Positions 17,761-34,809 of a stretch of DNA of 34,809 nt are shown one piece after another (the first letter of the stretch is position 1; every line of letters starts with the position of its first letter). This DNA comes from Candidatus Moraniibacteriota bacterium (GTDB taxonomy: Bacteria; Patescibacteriota; Minisyncoccia; Moranbacterales; UBA1568), in the NCBI GenBank assembly GCA_018062205.1, contig JAGOSP010000001.1, positions 1-34,809 on the forward strand, read 5' to 3'. The notes below the pieces were generated by a model. It was not told the DNA's origin. It worked only from the letters and a program-made list of their open reading frames with translations, and made no database searches. The position numbers and the translations under genes are program-made.

Positions 17761-19878
17761 ATGAAATTGTCTATGGGAAGAAACAAAAAGATATATATTT
17801 TTTTTGGGACGGTGTTTTTTTTCTGCGCCGTTTTTTGGTTGGTACCGAATGTCAGTTTTGCGGCTGAAAAGGGCGGTGGTGCTTTTTTTGGGGCAGTTCT
17901 GAACGGAATTAAGGGTGCTGTAGAATGGATTCTCTACACACTTATTTTTACCCCACTGACTTGGCTCGTCTCTGTAGCGGTAGCACTCTTTAGTTTTGCA
18001 GTGAACGCTGATTTGATTTCTGGTCCGACAGGACTTTTGAATCATCCAGAAATCTATGAACTGTGGAAATTTATTCGTGATTTTTGTAATATCTTTTTTA
18101 TTCTCATGCTTCTAATTGGAGCCTTTGCGATGGTTTTTCAGTTGAGTAGCTATAATGCTAAGAAAACGTTACTGAGCATCATTCTCATGGCACTGTTTGT
18201 GAACTTTAGCTTTCCGCTTTCCAGAGTCCTCATTGATGTCTCGAATGTCCCCACATATTTTTTCGTTCAACAGATTTTAGGATCAAGCGGAGGGAGCTCT
18301 GTTGCCGATGTCGCCAGTAAGTCTTTTTTGAGCGCGTCTAACATGGAGAGGCTTTTACTGCCGAATGGAGAAGCGGGCTCGACTGTTTCGAGTCTTATTG
18401 TGGCCATTGTTTTTATGTTTTTGTTTGGTGTTTCCCTAACAATCTTAGCTGTTTTGTTTGTGATTCGAGTGGTTTCGCTAGTGGTGCTGGTGATTTTTTC
18501 ACCCATTGGGTTCATGAAATTCATGCCCGGCTTGAGTGGATATGCTGATGAGTGGTGGAAAAAATTAATCGGGAATCTTATTTTTGCGCCAGCAGCCATG
18601 CTGATGCTTTTGGTGTCGATTCGTTTTGCGAATGTCATGCAGTCATACAATACTACTCTATCGAGCGAAGCATCCGCTGTGTCTGGTGATGCGGGGCTAA
18701 CAGTGATATTTAGTACCATGTTGAAATCTGCTATTCCGATTATTCTCATTATGATGACTATTTCCGTGGCCTTAAGTTCTAAGGTGGCCGGAGTGGGTAT
18801 AGCCAAAAAAGCGAGTGATAAGCTAATGGGATGGGGAAAGAAGGCGTCACTTTTTGCTGCGGGTGGCATTACTGGTGGAGCCGCAACAGCAGGAATGTTT
18901 CTTGGTGGAAGACGGGCTAAGGGGTATGTGGGGGGTCTTAAAGAGAGATTTGATCGAACACGCTTTTCTACCAAATCAAGAGAGGTAAAAAGAAAAGACA
19001 TAGAAGAAGCATGGAGAGGACTTGGGAGCCGAGGGCTTGATGGAAGGTCTGCTGCTTTGCAAACTATTCAAAATCGGAAGATTGCTGAAGCGGCCAAAGA
19101 GAATAAAGACAAAAACGTGAGCAATTCAGAATTATTGAAGAATCTAAACGGTGGAGATAAGGTGAGCGCAGCAGCAGCAGCAATGACGTTGTCTGAAAAT
19201 AAAGCCATTTCGAATGCAGAAGATTTCCAGAAGGCAGCAAAATCTCTCGAAGCACTCGGAAAAGATGCACCGCGTGAAATGGGAAAATTGTTGGATGGCG
19301 TTCGCTCGGGGGCATTTAAGATGGATGCATATGGAATTAAAGAGCTTTTGAATACAGGGTCTTTTGCGCAGCGAGATGCTAACAATCAGCCAATGAAGAA
19401 CGCTGATGGCAGTTATGTCGTTGATGAGAATTCAAATCTCTACAAAGATTTTTCATCGAAAATGCGCAGCGAAGGTCAAATTAAGTCTTTTGCAGATTAT
19501 CGTATTCAGACAGAAATTGCTCGCGGGGAAGCAACGGGCGCTACGCCAGATGAGGCAAAAATTCGAAGTGAGGTATATCACAATACAATCGGAAGACTTT
19601 CGTCAATTGATCTTGCTAAGCAAAGCAGTATTCATGAGTCCTTAGAGTCAGACGCAGAATTACGTAGTTATCTGCAACAATACGCAGACAAGTATAAGAC
19701 GAATTATGAGAAGACCATGGAAAGAATGTCAACTGCTGATCAAGACAAATGGACGAAGGCGAAGGTTGTCCCAACTCCGAAGGCCCCTCCCTCTGATACG
19801 AATACTACTGCAGGAGTAGCACAGAGTCAGAGAGAGAAATTACGTGAGGTTGGTCAACGAAATAATCGTCGAGCTTAA
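17761..19878 (+). CDS. VirB6/TrbL-like type IV secretion membrane protein
   Basis: 705 residues. A signal peptide ends near residue 34 (VSFAA). About six to seven membrane helices follow between 45 and 340: FTPLTWLVSVAVALFSF, then FFILMLLIGAFAMVF, two helices near 205-245 and 260-290, then a last near 315-335. This is the layout of VirB6/TrbL channel proteins, including the conserved region KKTLLSIILMALFVNFS. From about 350 the protein is a long hydrophilic, charged helical region (RGLG, then a GCA-repeat-coded Ala run near 470) that probably lies in the cytoplasm. A second in-frame ATG at 17773 is possible. It would form the inner-membrane channel of the secretion machine. Confidence 0.85.
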   Translation: MKLSMGRNKKIYIFFGTVFFFCAVFWLVPNVSFAAEKGGGAFFGAVLNGIKGAVEWILYTLIFTPLTWLVSVAVALFSFAVNADLISGPTGLLNHPEIYELWKFIRDFCNIFFILMLLIGAFAMVFQLSSYNAKKTLLSIILMALFVNFSFPLSRVLIDVSNVPTYFFVQQILGSSGGSSVADVASKSFLSASNMERLLLPNGEAGSTVSSLIVAIVFMFLFGVSLTILAVLFVIRVVSLVVLVIFSPIGFMKFMPGLSGYADEWWKKLIGNLIFAPAAMLMLLVSIRFANVMQSYNTTLSSEASAVSGDAGLTVIFSTMLKSAIPIILIMMTISVALSSKVAGVGIAKKASDKLMGWGKKASLFAAGGITGGAATAGMFLGGRRAKGYVGGLKERFDRTRFSTKSREVKRKDIEEAWRGLGSRGLDGRSAALQTIQNRKIAEAAKENKDKNVSNSELLKNLNGGDKVSAAAAAMTLSENKAISNAEDFQKAAKSLEALGKDAPREMGKLLDGVRSGAFKMDAYGIKELLNTGSFAQRDANNQPMKNADGSYVVDENSNLYKDFSSKMRSEGQIKSFADYRIQTEIARGEATGATPDEAKIRSEVYHNTIGRLSSIDLAKQSSIHESLESDAELRSYLQQYADKYKTNYEKTMERMSTADQDKWTKAKVVPTPKAPPSDTNTTAGVAQSQREKLREVGQRNNRRA

Positions 19879-19893
19879 TTCTTTGTGAGTAGT

Positions 19894-21147
19894 ATGCAAA
19901 CCGAACTTTCTAATGAATTTTATCCCTTACTGGCAGGCTATTATGATGAGTCTGATTTCGAGGCGTACAGGGCTATGTGGATTGCTTTTCGTGAGCTCCC
20001 GATATTTTCTCGTAATTTATTGACATCAAGCGAGCTACCGATTGCACTTCAGGCTCTCTCGGAGCGATTTCATCTTGATCAGTCAACAACAGCATTTGTC
20101 TCGGTTATGACGAGAAAAATTATTTTTCAAGAATGGAATGAGGAACAATCTAGAGCGGAGCTTACTGCCTGGTGTCAGGAGTTTGATTCGAAGAATATAT
20201 CTCGTCTTGAAGAAATATTTACAGCAGTCAAGAATGATATTTTGACTATTACTCCGAAAGAAGAAGCCGAGGAGGAAAAGAAGCACCTAATAGCACGCAT
20301 GACCCTTTTAGAAGCATTGGCACAATATCCACAACTTGGGCAGCAGACCATTACAGAGACGCGTATTAAATTAAAAGCAAGTGTCGAGTTGGTTCGCGGA
20401 TCTTTGATAAATTGGCTGAAGTGTTATCGCGAAGAACTTGGTGTTGGTTATCATGACGCGATGTTGCGAGGACAATTCCTCTTTCGCTCACAAAATGGAA
20501 TTAAACTAACAGATGAAGAGCATGGGCGTATAGAAATTCTTCTCCGTTCTCTCGAAGATCGAGAAACAGTAGAAATTGATACAGAACATCAAGTGCTTAT
20601 TTTTCCGCCATATATTGGTCCAAAAAATTCACAACCAGAACAGCAAAAACAAGCGGAAACCTTTATTACTGGGGCTCCTCTTGCTTCTAATGTCCCTCCT
20701 GTATCTCTGCCAGCAAATGAAGAAAGTAAATCGGTATCGCCTCATGAGATACCGGGAAAAGAATCATCAAATCAGGTGCCAAATGAGACTGGCTCTTTGC
20801 ATGTATTGAATAAGGGTGCTCAGTTTTCACCGGTACATCAAACAATTGGGACCCTCCATTTTTCTTCTAAGCATGTGCTTCCTGTAGAGAAAAAAATTCA
20901 ATCCGAAAGAAAGGTGCAGAGCTCATCAGAAGAACCAAATACGCAGAATGTGTCGTTATCAACGCTTTCTAGATCGAGCGATGACGTACCTGTGGTTTCC
21001 CAGAACAGCAAGGTAAACATGGTTACGCCCAGCATGAGTGATATTCCTCATCCAGCACCAGCACCGAAACGAATTTTCAACTTAAGCTATATTCCAAAGC
21101 CATATCGGATTGATCCTATCAAGCGCGAGCAACCAGAAAAAGAATAA
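19894..21147 (+). CDS. Unrecognised soluble protein of the secretion locus, helical domain plus disordered tail
   Basis: 417 residues from ATG 19894 (a GTG at 19885 is also in frame). No signal peptide or membrane helix. Residues 1-235 are predicted helical and conserved-looking (NEFYPLLAGYYDESDFEAY, then EEAEEEKKHL, then YHDAMLRGQFLF). From about 245 to 395 the sequence is rich in Ser, Pro, Gln and Glu, probably disordered. It ends with a short motif FNLSYIPKPYRIDP that looks like a docking peptide. It is flanked by VirB6-like and PrgI genes, so it is probably a cytoplasmic accessory factor. Family not recognised. Confidence 0.8.
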   Translation: MQTELSNEFYPLLAGYYDESDFEAYRAMWIAFRELPIFSRNLLTSSELPIALQALSERFHLDQSTTAFVSVMTRKIIFQEWNEEQSRAELTAWCQEFDSKNISRLEEIFTAVKNDILTITPKEEAEEEKKHLIARMTLLEALAQYPQLGQQTITETRIKLKASVELVRGSLINWLKCYREELGVGYHDAMLRGQFLFRSQNGIKLTDEEHGRIEILLRSLEDRETVEIDTEHQVLIFPPYIGPKNSQPEQQKQAETFITGAPLASNVPPVSLPANEESKSVSPHEIPGKESSNQVPNETGSLHVLNKGAQFSPVHQTIGTLHFSSKHVLPVEKKIQSERKVQSSSEEPNTQNVSLSTLSRSSDDVPVVSQNSKVNMVTPSMSDIPHPAPAPKRIFNLSYIPKPYRIDPIKREQPEKE

Positions 21148-21158
21148 TAAGAGTTCCG

Positions 21159-21167
21159 TGGTATACT
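21159..21167 (+). promoter_or_regulatory. Extended -10 promoter just before the PrgI gene
   Basis: TGG followed by TATACT lies 14 bases before ATG 21182, giving a predicted leader of only about 7 bases. It may be an internal promoter for the PrgI-VirB4 part of the locus. Confidence 0.5.
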
Positions 21168-21181
21168 TTTCTTGAGTCCAT

Positions 21182-21601
21182 ATGATGCAATCATCAGTTC
21201 CGCAATATATTGACGTTGAAGACAAAATTGTCGGCCCATTTACCTGGAAGCATATTGGTTGGCTTCTTGGGATGTGCGCGGTGCTTTTGGTTATGTATAC
21301 GGCTTTTGACTTCCAGCTTTTTTTGATTGCTGGAGGGCCAACAGCATTAACATTTCTTGCTTTTGCGTTTTATCGCCCATCTGGCATGCCCATGTCAAAG
21401 TTTGTTTTCCACGGTATTTTTTTTCTCTTTCGTCCAAAGGTATCTGTATGGGAAAGACCAGTACATGTGTCAAGTGCACCAATGGTAGTTATGAAGCGTC
21501 CCGGATCAGCTGTTGTTGAATCAACACACGAATCACAGGGAATAACCGAGGAAAAATTGAAAGCCTTGGCTGCTATACTCGATCAAAAATCTGAAAAATG
21601 A
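21182..21601 (+). CDS. PrgI family type IV secretion membrane protein
   Basis: 139 residues. Opens with the PrgI signature QYIDVEDKIVGPFTWKHIG, then two membrane helices (about 25-42 and 45-65), then FYRPSGMPMSKFVFHG and FLFRPKVSVWER. PrgI proteins are small VirB3-like subunits that pair with VirB4 ATPases in Gram-positive type IV secretion systems, exactly the neighbourhood here. A second ATG at 21185 is equally possible. The stop is followed by the TraC-like gene. Confidence 0.93.
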   Translation: MMQSSVPQYIDVEDKIVGPFTWKHIGWLLGMCAVLLVMYTAFDFQLFLIAGGPTALTFLAFAFYRPSGMPMSKFVFHGIFFLFRPKVSVWERPVHVSSAPMVVMKRPGSAVVESTHESQGITEEKLKALAAILDQKSEK

Positions 21602-21654
21602 TTCCCTGAGTGAGAGAGTGGCTTTATGGAGAAACGAAATTAATAAAGAGAAAC

Positions 21655-22344
21655 ATGGAATTTTTGAATCCAAAAAATCAAAACCCCGGAACGGCATCAA
21701 AAAGTAGCACACAACAGTATGTTGATGTTGATGAAATTCGTGATGGAGTGGTCATCTTAAAAAATGGTTCACTTCGTGCGATACTTCTTGTTTCCTCTCT
21801 GAACTTTGACTTGAAGTCATCGGATGAACAAGAGGGGATTATTTTGCAATATCAAAATTTTCTCAATTCATTGGATTTTCCAGTGCAAATGGTCGTGAGC
21901 TCTCGGAGATTGAATATCGAACCATATTTAGGACTCCTTTCTGCGCGCGAAAAAGAACAAGAAAATGATTTGTTGCGATTTCAGATTGCGGAGTATAAGA
22001 AATTTGTCAAAGAGTTGACTGAGGGTTCGAGTATCATGTCAAAATTTTTCTATGTAGTGGTTCCATTCTCGGCAGTAGAAGATAACCGAGGAGATTTGAA
22101 AGACAAGATGTTTGGACTATTTAAATCAAAAGAAGCAGTTGAAACTCGCCCGGAACTTTTCCAGACGTATCGGAGTCAACTTTTACAACGAGTAGGACAT
22201 GTAACTGCGGCGCTGTCAGCCACCGGTGTCCATGTCACAATGCTTGAGACGGAGGAGGTGATAGAATTGCTTTATAATAGTTATAATCCATCGGTTTTCA
22301 GTTCGGCTATTTTGAAGAATATCGATCAAGTAGAATTGAAATAG
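21655..22344 (+). CDS. TraC-like / VirB4 N-terminal-like secretion protein without ATPase motifs
   Basis: 229 residues from ATG 21655, chosen for AAAGAG 4 bases upstream; an in-frame start at 21610 lacks one. It begins STQQYVDVDEIRDGVVILKNGSL, typical of TraC-like proteins found beside VirB4 in this bacterial group. It continues as a mixed alpha/beta protein (ILLVSSLNFDLKS, then DFPVQMVVSSRRLN, then SKFFYVVVPFS). No Walker motifs. It resembles the N-terminal domain that precedes the motor domain in VirB4/TraC ATPases, so it is probably a separate structural partner of the VirB4 encoded next. Confidence 0.85.
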   Translation: MEFLNPKNQNPGTASKSSTQQYVDVDEIRDGVVILKNGSLRAILLVSSLNFDLKSSDEQEGIILQYQNFLNSLDFPVQMVVSSRRLNIEPYLGLLSAREKEQENDLLRFQIAEYKKFVKELTEGSSIMSKFFYVVVPFSAVEDNRGDLKDKMFGLFKSKEAVETRPELFQTYRSQLLQRVGHVTAALSATGVHVTMLETEEVIELLYNSYNPSVFSSAILKNIDQVELK

Positions 22345-22377
22345 AAGGAACGTAACCGGATGATGATGTAAAAGAGC

Positions 22378-24228
22378 ATGAATTTATTCAGGCGAGACAA
22401 ACAAAAAACAGGAGCAAATACTTCAGACACAGACTTTTCTCTGGGTTCTATGACAACGCGCGATACGGAGGCACTTTATCAAAAAGGCATTGCCACTGTT
22501 CGCGATCTTATTGCACCGCCAGCAATACGTTTGAGTCCAAATATGATGCAGGTTGGTGATGTGTTTGTTCGTACATATTTTGTGATTGCTTATCCGCGTT
22601 ATCTTTCGACGAATTGGTTTTCTCCAATTATCAACCTTGATTTTTCTATGGATACAGCACTATTCGTGCACCCAATTGATACCGCGAATATTCTGAAGCA
22701 ACTCCGAAGGTCATCCACTCAGGTGCAGTCACAAATATCCATTGAAGCCGATGGGGGAAAAGTTCGTGATCCAATGCTCGAAACAGCTTTCCAGGATATT
22801 GAAGCGCTTCGTGATAAATTGCAGCAGGGAACAGAAAAGTTTTTCCGTTTCGGACTCTACATAACTGTTTATGGAAAAGATCAAGATGATTTAAGTGAAA
22901 AATCGAGCGCAGTAGAATCGCTTCTTGAGGCGCAGTTGGTATATGTAAAGCCCGCTATCCTGCGCATGGATCAGGGCTTTGCCTCCACTCGACCTTTGGG
23001 TACCGATACGTTGGATGTCGCAAATAATCTTAATACAGAACCTCTTTCAACGACATTCCCTTTCGTTTCATCGGATTTATCATCTGGTGATGGTATTTTG
23101 TATGGTATTAATCGGCATAATAATTCGCTGATTCTCTTTGACCGTTTCAAGTTGGAGAATGCCAACATGGTTGTTTTCGCAAAATCTGGTGCCGGAAAAA
23201 GTTATACCGTCAAACTTGAGGTGTTGCGTTCGATGATGTTTGGGGCAAGCGTGATTATTCTTGACCCAGAGAATGAGTATAAGCATCTCTGCGAAACAGT
23301 CGGGGGAAGTTTTATGAAGATCGCTCTCAATTCGACTGTACACCTGAACCCGTTTGATTTACCACGAAAGAATGATGAAGATGATGCGGAGAGTGTGCTT
23401 CGGAGCAATATCGCGAATTTGGTTGGATTGCTCCATTTGATGCTGGGAATGGTAACACCAGAAGAGGATTCGATTCTTGACCGGGCTATTCGTGAGACGT
23501 ATGCTATTCGGGATATCACGGCACAGTCTGATTTTTCAAAATTAACTTCTTCTTCTTATCCGACGATGTCGGATCTCTATGCCGTTTTGCAAAATATGGA
23601 TGGAGCGGAATCCTTAGCAATTCGGCTGGAACGATACACGGAGGGTATTTTCGGTGGTTTCTTGAATAAACAATCTAATGTTGTGTTGAGTAGTCAGCTG
23701 GTGGTTTTTAATATTCGTGATCTTGAAGAAGAACTCCGTCCAATTGCAATGTACATTATCTTGCAGTTTATCTGGAATGAGATTCGCACAGAGATGAAAA
23801 AACGCGTAGTGGTGGTGGATGAGGCATGGGTGATGATGCAGCATGAGGACGCTGCCGCCTTTCTCTTTGGTATCGCAAAGCGGTGTCGAAAATATTATAC
23901 CGGACTGACAACAATTACTCAGGATATAAGTGATTTCATGAATTCACGCCACGGGAAATCAATCGTAACAAATTCTTCGTTGCAGCTTTTGCTTCGTCAG
24001 TCCCCTGCTTCTATTGAGACCGTGGCCGAGACGTTTTATCTGACAGATCACGAGAAATTCCTTTTGCTTGAATCATCGGTTGGAGAAGGAATATTTTTTG
24101 CTGGAACAAAGCATGCGGCTATTAAGGTTATGGCTTCATTTAGTGAAGACCAAATTATCACCTCTGATCCGAGACAGCTGTTGGAGATAGAACAGGCGAA
24201 GAAAGATTTTGATTCAGATCTGAAATAA
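22378..24228 (+). CDS. virB4: VirB4-family type IV secretion ATPase
   Basis: 616 residues. An N-terminal CagE/TrbE/VirB-type domain covers about 40-240. The motor domain has Walker A AKSGAGKS (268-275), an IILDPENEY strand (about 293-301), Walker B VVVVDEAW (477-484) and the RCRKYYTGLTTITQD arginine/sensor segment. HerA/FtsK-type hexameric ATPases of this family power assembly and substrate transfer in type IV secretion. It lies after PrgI and the TraC-like gene, the usual order. No VirD4 coupling ATPase is found in the window. Confidence 0.95.
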   Translation: MNLFRRDKQKTGANTSDTDFSLGSMTTRDTEALYQKGIATVRDLIAPPAIRLSPNMMQVGDVFVRTYFVIAYPRYLSTNWFSPIINLDFSMDTALFVHPIDTANILKQLRRSSTQVQSQISIEADGGKVRDPMLETAFQDIEALRDKLQQGTEKFFRFGLYITVYGKDQDDLSEKSSAVESLLEAQLVYVKPAILRMDQGFASTRPLGTDTLDVANNLNTEPLSTTFPFVSSDLSSGDGILYGINRHNNSLILFDRFKLENANMVVFAKSGAGKSYTVKLEVLRSMMFGASVIILDPENEYKHLCETVGGSFMKIALNSTVHLNPFDLPRKNDEDDAESVLRSNIANLVGLLHLMLGMVTPEEDSILDRAIRETYAIRDITAQSDFSKLTSSSYPTMSDLYAVLQNMDGAESLAIRLERYTEGIFGGFLNKQSNVVLSSQLVVFNIRDLEEELRPIAMYIILQFIWNEIRTEMKKRVVVVDEAWVMMQHEDAAAFLFGIAKRCRKYYTGLTTITQDISDFMNSRHGKSIVTNSSLQLLLRQSPASIETVAETFYLTDHEKFLLLESSVGEGIFFAGTKHAAIKVMASFSEDQIITSDPRQLLEIEQAKKDFDSDLK

Positions 24229-33072: not shown

Positions 33073-33114
33073 GACAAAATATGCTTAACTAACTTGTTTG
33101 AAATGGTATCATGA

Positions 33115-33139
33115 TTTTTCCCTTCTGTAAAGGGAAAAA
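33115..33139. repeat. Perfect palindrome between divergent DUF4446 and xseA genes
   Basis: TTTTTCCCTT and AAGGGAAAAA form a 10-bp stem with loop CTGTA. It has no T-run in the right place for a terminator on either strand. Position between divergent genes fits a shared operator. Confidence 0.4.
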
Positions 33140-33142
33140 GGG

Positions 33143-33171
33143 TTGGAAAGTTCGGCCGGAACCGTTATGAT
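33143..33171 (+). promoter_or_regulatory. Candidate sigma-70 promoter overlapping the annotated xseA start
   Basis: TTGGAA, a 17-base spacer, then TATGAT. The -10 box overlaps ATG 33167, so if active the transcript would begin near 33178 and translation would have to use the in-frame TTG 33185 or ATG 33200. Confidence 0.4.
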
Positions 33172-34771
33172 ACGAGAGTACCTTTTGAAAGACCTGTCTA
33201 TGGATGTGCGTGGGATATTGTGGCAATGGCGAAGAAAACAAGCAGAACAAGAGGGTGTGGAAGTATTCCGCGTTCTGCCGAATGCGGTTTTGGAAGCATT
33301 ATTACTTGCTATACCTCAGACAAAGGAAGAGCTATTGGCTATTAAGGGTATTAAGGAGGCGAAGTATCGGAAATACGGGAAAGCGATACTTGGGATATTG
33401 GCAGGTTTGTCCAAGCCAGAAATAACCAGCGATAAGGGGGGATTGCAGGATTTTTTCTCCAGCATTACCGATGAATCACTTTCTTCAACGGTGACAGAGC
33501 AGGCGGCCGAAGAAAAACCACTTTCTATTAGCCAATTTCTTGATGGACTCAATATTGAGTTATCAGGTATGGCAGCCCGAGTACAAGGAGAGATATCTAG
33601 CGTGGATGAACGAGAACGAGTAGTCTATTTCACACTCAAGGATAGTACGGATGGGAGTACATTAAATTGTCTCATGTTTCGTTCGGCCTATCAGATGGCA
33701 GGTGTTCGGCTGGTGATTGGAGGTGAAGTCATCGCGGAGGGATCACCAGATATCTATAAACCAAGTGGGAGATTGTCTTTTAAGGTGGGGTTTCTCGTGC
33801 TTGCTGGTGAGGGGGCGATTAAGAAAGCCTACGATGCGCTTTTGGAAAAATTTTCTCAAGAAGGGCTTTTGGCTCCCGAACGCAAACGTGTGTTACCGCC
33901 GTTTCCTTCGAGGGTGGCGCTCATTACCTCCGAGCAGGGAGCGGCTCTGGGGGATTTCACCATGAATCTTGGTCGGTTGGGGATCCGGGTGGATTTTTAT
34001 CCAGCGAGTGTTGAAGGAAATCGATCAGTTCCGGATATACTGGAGGCTCTGCGGTTTTTTTCTCAGCAAGCTTCGAAATATGATCTCCTGGTAATGATTC
34101 GTGGTGGAGGGAGCCTGGAAAGCTTACAGGCCTTTAATAATGAGATGCTGGTGCGAGCGATAGCGGAGTGCCCGATTCCGACGCTCCTCGGTATTGGGCA
34201 TGAAAAGGATGTGACGCTCGCTGCACTGGTGGCTGATGTCATGGTTTCTACTCCAACCGCAACAGCAAGGACGCTTCGAGAGCCGTTTGAACGGGCGCGG
34301 CAGACGGTTTTGTATGCGGAAAAGTGGCTTCCAGAAAGATTTGAGCGTGTTTTATCACAGCAGAAGACTCTTCTGGAAGGAGGGGAGCGGGTATTGACGT
34401 CGGTATTTCCTCGTCTGAGAGAGCGTTTTGTTCGGGCTGAACAAGAGCTTGTTCGTATGTCTGAACAGATAGTGTATGCGCTCCGTTTGGCGAATAAACA
34501 GCTTGAGGAAGCAGAGGTATTCTGCCTCTCTGGGTATCAGCGTCTGCGAGAGACTTTTTCTCAGAAACTGCTTTCTCTTGAGGAAAAACTTCGAGAATAT
34601 GATCCAGAGCGTGCGTTGTCACTTGGGTATAGTCTCATTCGTTCCCAAGGCAAAATAGTCCGCAATGTAGAAGAAGTGAAAATAGGGAGCTTGATACTGG
34701 CACAGATACAAAATGGTATGGTAGAGGCAGAAGTGAAACATATTTTATCCAATAAGCACACAAAAGTATGA
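33167..34771 (+). CDS. xseA: Exodeoxyribonuclease VII large subunit with N-terminal HRDC domain
   Basis: 534 residues from ATG 33167 (a later ATG at 33200 is possible). Residues 12-80 form an HRDC domain (ILWQWRRKQAEQEG, then LPQTKEELLAIKGIKEAKYRKYG-like pattern, ending ILGIL). An acidic linker (85-118) and the OB-fold N-terminal XseA domain (about 120-215) follow. The catalytic domain has ALITSEQGAALGDF (251-264), MIRGGGSLESL (310-320), GIGHEKDVT (342-350) and DVMVSTPTATA (357-367), then a C-terminal coiled coil. The added HRDC (a helicase/RNase D nucleic-acid-binding module) is unusual for XseA. The stop overlaps the next ATG (ATGA), the typical xseA-xseB link. Confidence 0.93.
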   Translation: MIREYLLKDLSMDVRGILWQWRRKQAEQEGVEVFRVLPNAVLEALLLAIPQTKEELLAIKGIKEAKYRKYGKAILGILAGLSKPEITSDKGGLQDFFSSITDESLSSTVTEQAAEEKPLSISQFLDGLNIELSGMAARVQGEISSVDERERVVYFTLKDSTDGSTLNCLMFRSAYQMAGVRLVIGGEVIAEGSPDIYKPSGRLSFKVGFLVLAGEGAIKKAYDALLEKFSQEGLLAPERKRVLPPFPSRVALITSEQGAALGDFTMNLGRLGIRVDFYPASVEGNRSVPDILEALRFFSQQASKYDLLVMIRGGGSLESLQAFNNEMLVRAIAECPIPTLLGIGHEKDVTLAALVADVMVSTPTATARTLREPFERARQTVLYAEKWLPERFERVLSQQKTLLEGGERVLTSVFPRLRERFVRAEQELVRMSEQIVYALRLANKQLEEAEVFCLSGYQRLRETFSQKLLSLEEKLREYDPERALSLGYSLIRSQGKIVRNVEEVKIGSLILAQIQNGMVEAEVKHILSNKHTKV

Positions 34772-34809
34772 GCCCAAGAAAAGAATCACTCGGAGAATCA
34801 CTCAAGAGG
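34768..34809 (+). CDS. xseB: Start of exodeoxyribonuclease VII small subunit (partial)
   Basis: An ATG overlapping the xseA stop by 4 bases opens a frame to the window end with 14 codons, MSPRKESLGESLKR. The N-terminal sequence alone is not diagnostic, and the call rests on position and overlap with xseA. Confidence 0.6.
   Translation, partial: MSPRKESLGESLKR

Follow-up and report, generated by a model that had tools for sequence, protein, structure and literature searches.

In the window analysed here, a stretch of 34,809 nucleotides from Candidatus Moraniibacteriota bacterium (contig JAGOSP010000001.1), a member of a lineage of tiny uncultured bacteria, the large subunit of exonuclease VII (XseA) carries at its N-terminus an HRDC domain, a positively charged extra module usually seen on RecQ helicases. 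Sequence comparison indicates that this fusion is real, old, maintained by selection and vertically inherited, with a few losses. The product is probably the large subunit of an ordinary, vertically inherited exonuclease VII (ExoVII, composed of XseA and XseB) whose tethered, basic HRDC arms would add contacts with DNA. In the open-access literature searched, no report joining HRDC and XseA in one protein was found. The HRDC-XseA architecture is well supported as a fact and new for this known enzyme, although domain databases may list it.

All domains of the protein are held by a single open reading frame on the forward strand (33143-34771), without any internal stop. When the protein is read from the ATG at 33167, Pfam places HRDC (PF00570) at residues 16-78 (E 1.1e-17, 64.2 bits against a cut-off of 23.8), the tRNA_anti_2 OB-fold at residues 136-207 (E 1.3e-14) and Exonuc_VII_L (PF02601) at residues 234-521 (E 2.4e-60), and the NCBIfam model TIGR00237 (xseA) scores 290.1 bits over the whole protein against a cut-off of 180. 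The earlier note had proposed an HRDC domain fused to XseA, to be confirmed by a profile search, and this proposal stands, since both domains lie in one frame far over their cut-offs and in the same order in relatives. Its start codon, at 33167, most likely lies 33 bases too far upstream. The first methionine of the relatives aligns with the ATG at 33200, and a sigma-70-like promoter (TTGGAA-N17-TATGAT, 33143-33171, forward strand), with hexamers and spacing kept in two same-genus genomes and in the Moranbacteria locus L033 (63% identical), spans the upstream ATG, which falls within the -10 box. The most likely start is therefore 33200, as judged from homology and promoter position, giving a protein of 523 amino acids encoded at 33200-34771, stop codon included; residues are numbered from this start below, the Pfam ranges above being numbered from 33167. 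The intergenic stretch located 5’ of the fusion gene (33085-33165), in which CCCTTCTGTAAAGGG-like letters precede the promoter, is strongly conserved with the genomes G001 and G002 and with L033 and is perhaps a regulatory site.

In the AlphaFold model of the full protein (41 aligned sequences, mean pLDDT 87), a compact five-helix domain (residues 1-71, 33200-33412) is followed by a mostly disordered stretch (73-104), the OB-fold, the catalytic domain, a long helix (352-466) and a C-terminal segment. Modelled alone, the N-terminal domain reaches a pLDDT of 92.7 and shows the five-helix HRDC fold; structure prediction was a check that the earlier note had suggested. It superposes on the HRDC of Escherichia coli RecQ (1wud) with a TM-score of 0.90 and an rmsd of 0.8 Å in Foldseek, and on that of E. 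coli RecQ with a Z-score of 14.3 over 73 aligned residues in VIA (rmsd 1.5). Fold searches also superpose it on the HRDC domains of BLM, WRN, RNase D and Rrp6, and the same HRDC families are recovered by sequence profile. Another helix-hairpin fold, named by the earlier note as the finding that would speak against its reading, is excluded by the fold searches. The HRDC domain is joined to the nuclease by an acidic and poorly conserved linker (residues 72-104, 33413-33511), mostly disordered in the model.

The nuclease part comprises the OB-fold (residues 105-203, 33512-33808), the catalytic domain (residues 204-350, 33809-34249), a long helical region (residues 351-466, 34250-34597) and the C-terminal segment (residues 467-523, 34598-34768), all encoded on the forward strand, so that the description of the XseA as complete holds. 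Its identity rests on the sequence match to E. coli ExoVII (8txr, E 2e-43, beginning in the OB-fold) and not on global superposition: in the fold search with the whole model 8txr ranked first with a poor TM-score of 0.29, a low value probably due to the flexible linker and the long helix. Across 41 sequences, no variation is seen at D252, H334 or D337, and conservation at R301 is at least 90%. In the alignment with 8txr, D252, R301, H334 and D337 correspond to the catalytic positions D155, R205, H238 and D241 of E. coli XseA, of which the title of 8txr confirms H238. The xseB gene overlaps the end of the fusion gene by 4 bases (ATGA), begins within the window (34768-34809, forward strand) and runs on to contig position 34977; its product of 69 amino acids matches PF02609 over the cut-off.

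The distribution of the fusion was surveyed in Patescibacteria genomes, a survey that the earlier note had suggested for candidate phyla. In the same family, of the Moranbacteria type, an XseA match is present in 27 of the 28 genomes searched and HRDC is found on that gene in 26 of these 27, including three seen in part owing to contig ends (G001, G002 and G026). The exception, G005, encodes an XseA of 424 residues and has no HRDC in its whole genome. Eight of ten XseA proteins from other families of the same order are also fused, and the fusion is scattered among other Patescibacteria: in a sample of 380 genomes of the phylum, XseA occurs in about 116 and is fused to HRDC in at least 11, as counted from the listing. 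Named relatives come from Moranbacteria (L033, L034 and L037), Yonathbacteria (L035) and Portnoybacteria (L036). For XseA proteins of other phyla on plasmid records, the HRDC part is unmatched among the 15 matches listed. In a tree of the XseA core, from which the HRDC columns were left out, one supported clade encloses all fused proteins plus some unfused ones, and four changes of the fusion label are needed, against 26 in shuffles. The simplest reading of this tree would be one gain followed by three losses, separate gains of HRDC on XseA being an admissible alternative. The idea that XseA recently received its HRDC by transfer from RecQ or PIF1 genes of Patescibacteria was also rejected, as the HRDC tree, although built on just 68 columns, keeps the three groups apart.

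Some variation in the N-terminal region of XseA was observed in the same survey. One HRDC-XseA, L023 (G009:C49), is encoded by an open reading frame of 669 amino acids with HRDC at 11-77 and the core from 253, and thus has about 140 more residues between HRDC and the OB-fold than its relatives. The XseA proteins L082 (G353:C38) and L078 (G086:C66) are extended at the N-terminus in another way, by about 100-145 residues that match HEAT_2 weakly and under the curated cut-off (E 5e-5 and 0.017, respectively), and XseA may have acquired unlike N-terminal modules in Patescibacteria.

The two parts of the N-terminal extension evolve differently. Comparing the window with same-genus relatives and L033, dN/dS is 0.04-0.10 for HRDC and 0.4 to 1.7 for the linker, values that are rough, dS being close to saturation in some pairs; they indicate purifying selection on the HRDC of XseA and an unconstrained linker, which varies among relatives in both sequence and length. 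In the HRDC tree (68 columns), the domains borne by XseA cluster together (SH-aLRT 94), apart from the RecQ and PIF1-type HRDC domains of the phylum, and they are more basic, with a median pI of 9.6 against 6.8 for RecQ HRDC domains. Within the XseA type, a basic residue is found at R24 in 43, at K49 in 44 and at K52 in 34 of 46 domains, and at these positions in none of 13 helicase HRDC domains. K49 and K52 are part of a hairpin loop, KGIK, which in helicases is mostly S/P-G-x-G. An aromatic residue at position 23 and a lysine at position 55 are common to the XseA and RecQ types. In ungapped ranges of the fold alignment, F23 corresponds to residue 555 of E. coli RecQ, a DNA-binding tyrosine, and K55 to K1270 of BLM. 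The latter residue is important in double Holliday junction dissolution (PMC4446433).

Mechanistically, the fused XseA and XseB would most likely form a nuclease complex of the usual ExoVII kind. Each XseA subunit in it would bear a single HRDC arm, mobile and positively charged, tethered through a flexible, acidic linker some 33 residues long. As the E. coli structure 8txr contains four XseA chains, four such arms would be expected. Judging from its charge, its position and what is known of the family, the arm would most likely contact DNA at single strands, flaps or branched ends, and the extra contacts would raise the affinity of ExoVII or steer it to its substrates. The suggestion of the earlier note, that HRDC may change DNA recognition or tie the nuclease to repair, is plausible and finds indirect support in the conservation of the domain and in its basic signature. 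DNA binding has been reported for the HRDC domains of several proteins, but in the crystal structure of BLM the domain is packed against the helicase core and not on DNA (PMC4446433), so that DNA binding by the HRDC of XseA should not be assumed. Moreover, the domain is not indispensable everywhere, since some members of the fused clade, including G005 of the same family, have lost it.

Other explanations of the domain were weighed against these DNA-binding arms. HRDC might instead be a protein-docking module that takes ExoVII to a partner such as a helicase, SSB or a recombination protein, a reading that we hold to be unlikely: HRDC domains differ in their surfaces from one protein to another and have been suggested to act in protein complexes (PMC4446433), and a recruiting arm would suit the flexible linker, but the conserved differences from helicase HRDC domains are basic hairpin-loop residues, more typical of a nucleic-acid surface. 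Gating of the active site by an HRDC that packs onto the catalytic domain or the OB-fold, in the manner of the BLM HRDC on its helicase core, is quite unlikely. Intramolecular packing is established in BLM (PMC4446433), but a linker of about 33 residues that is disordered in the model and drifts in sequence and length fits fixed packing poorly, although packing inside the full complex would be compatible with the monomer prediction. DNA contact, docking and gating are not firmly separated, the basic loop favouring DNA and the drifting, disordered linker making a fixed gate less likely.

That HRDC merely persists as a neutral remnant of an accidental fusion, which its several losses in the clade might suggest, is highly improbable and strongly disfavoured by the low dN/dS and by the basic signature kept across distant members. 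The chance that the fusion is an artefact, in which a wrong start, a frameshift or a sequencing error has brought separate genes together, is negligible. A wrong start had been named by the earlier note as a possible source of error, and its own start codon was indeed misplaced, but the frame is single and free of stops, the domain order is the same in relatives, and one-frame fusions are conserved in dozens of independent assemblies, which refutes the artefact.

HRDC-XseA contains no helicase domain, and no RecQ scores over the cut-off in the genome (966 kb, 96.65% complete), in which the HRDC of XseA is the sole one. The same domain is the only HRDC in 37 of 40 fused genomes. In a clade mostly devoid of RecQ, an HRDC-armed ExoVII might target branched or tailed DNA and take over the substrate recognition of the RecQ HRDC, a possibility that we consider very unlikely. 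RecQ is found over the cut-off in three of 40 fused and six of 30 unfused genomes examined, and a replacement of RecQ by HRDC-XseA was rejected as these counts show no clear anti-correlation.

In model ExoVII, the OB-fold is the only N-terminal nucleic-acid-binding domain of the large subunit, and an XseA armed with HRDC offers a natural test of the role of this domain on a nuclease rather than a helicase. The fusion also illustrates that in streamlined bacteria repair enzymes can gain domains, and that genes are not just lost. Annotation as plain XseA conceals the extra domain, a practical consequence that is modest. Elsewhere in the window, conjugation or type IV secretion-like genes are located at 17761-24228 on the forward strand; named by eye from their translations, they include a VirB6-like membrane protein, a PrgI-like protein and a VirB4-like ATPase.

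An HRDC at the C-terminus was also observed in L088, L089 and L090, which are some 520-540 residues long; Pfam classes L088 as a PIF1-like helicase, to which L090 is similar by sequence, and HRDC on PIF1 is another unusual pairing. Compared with known systems, the window protein shares with E. coli XseA (8txr; TIGR00237, PF02601) the OB-fold, the catalytic domain with its D/R/H/D residues, the long helix, the C-terminal segment and an adjoining xseB, and differs from it in having a linker and, at the N-terminus, an HRDC (residues 1-71) to which nothing in the E. coli protein corresponds. With the HRDC domains of RecQ (1wud, 2rhf; BLM 4cgz) it has in common the five-helix fold over the whole domain, the aromatic residue 23 and Lys 55, but in those proteins HRDC is C-terminal on a helicase, whereas in XseA it is N-terminal on a nuclease, belongs to a separate sequence group and bears the basic R24, K49 and K52. 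RNase D and Rrp6 (1yt3, 3saf) are likewise exonucleases bearing a domain of matching HRDC fold, but there it is C-terminal to the nuclease, which is a DEDD ribonuclease with a fold unrelated to XseA. Finally, the PIF1-like helicases L088 and L090 of other Patescibacteria resemble HRDC-XseA in joining a basic HRDC to a DNA enzyme in the same phylum, and differ in being helicases whose C-terminal HRDC falls in a separate group and lacks the KGIK signature.
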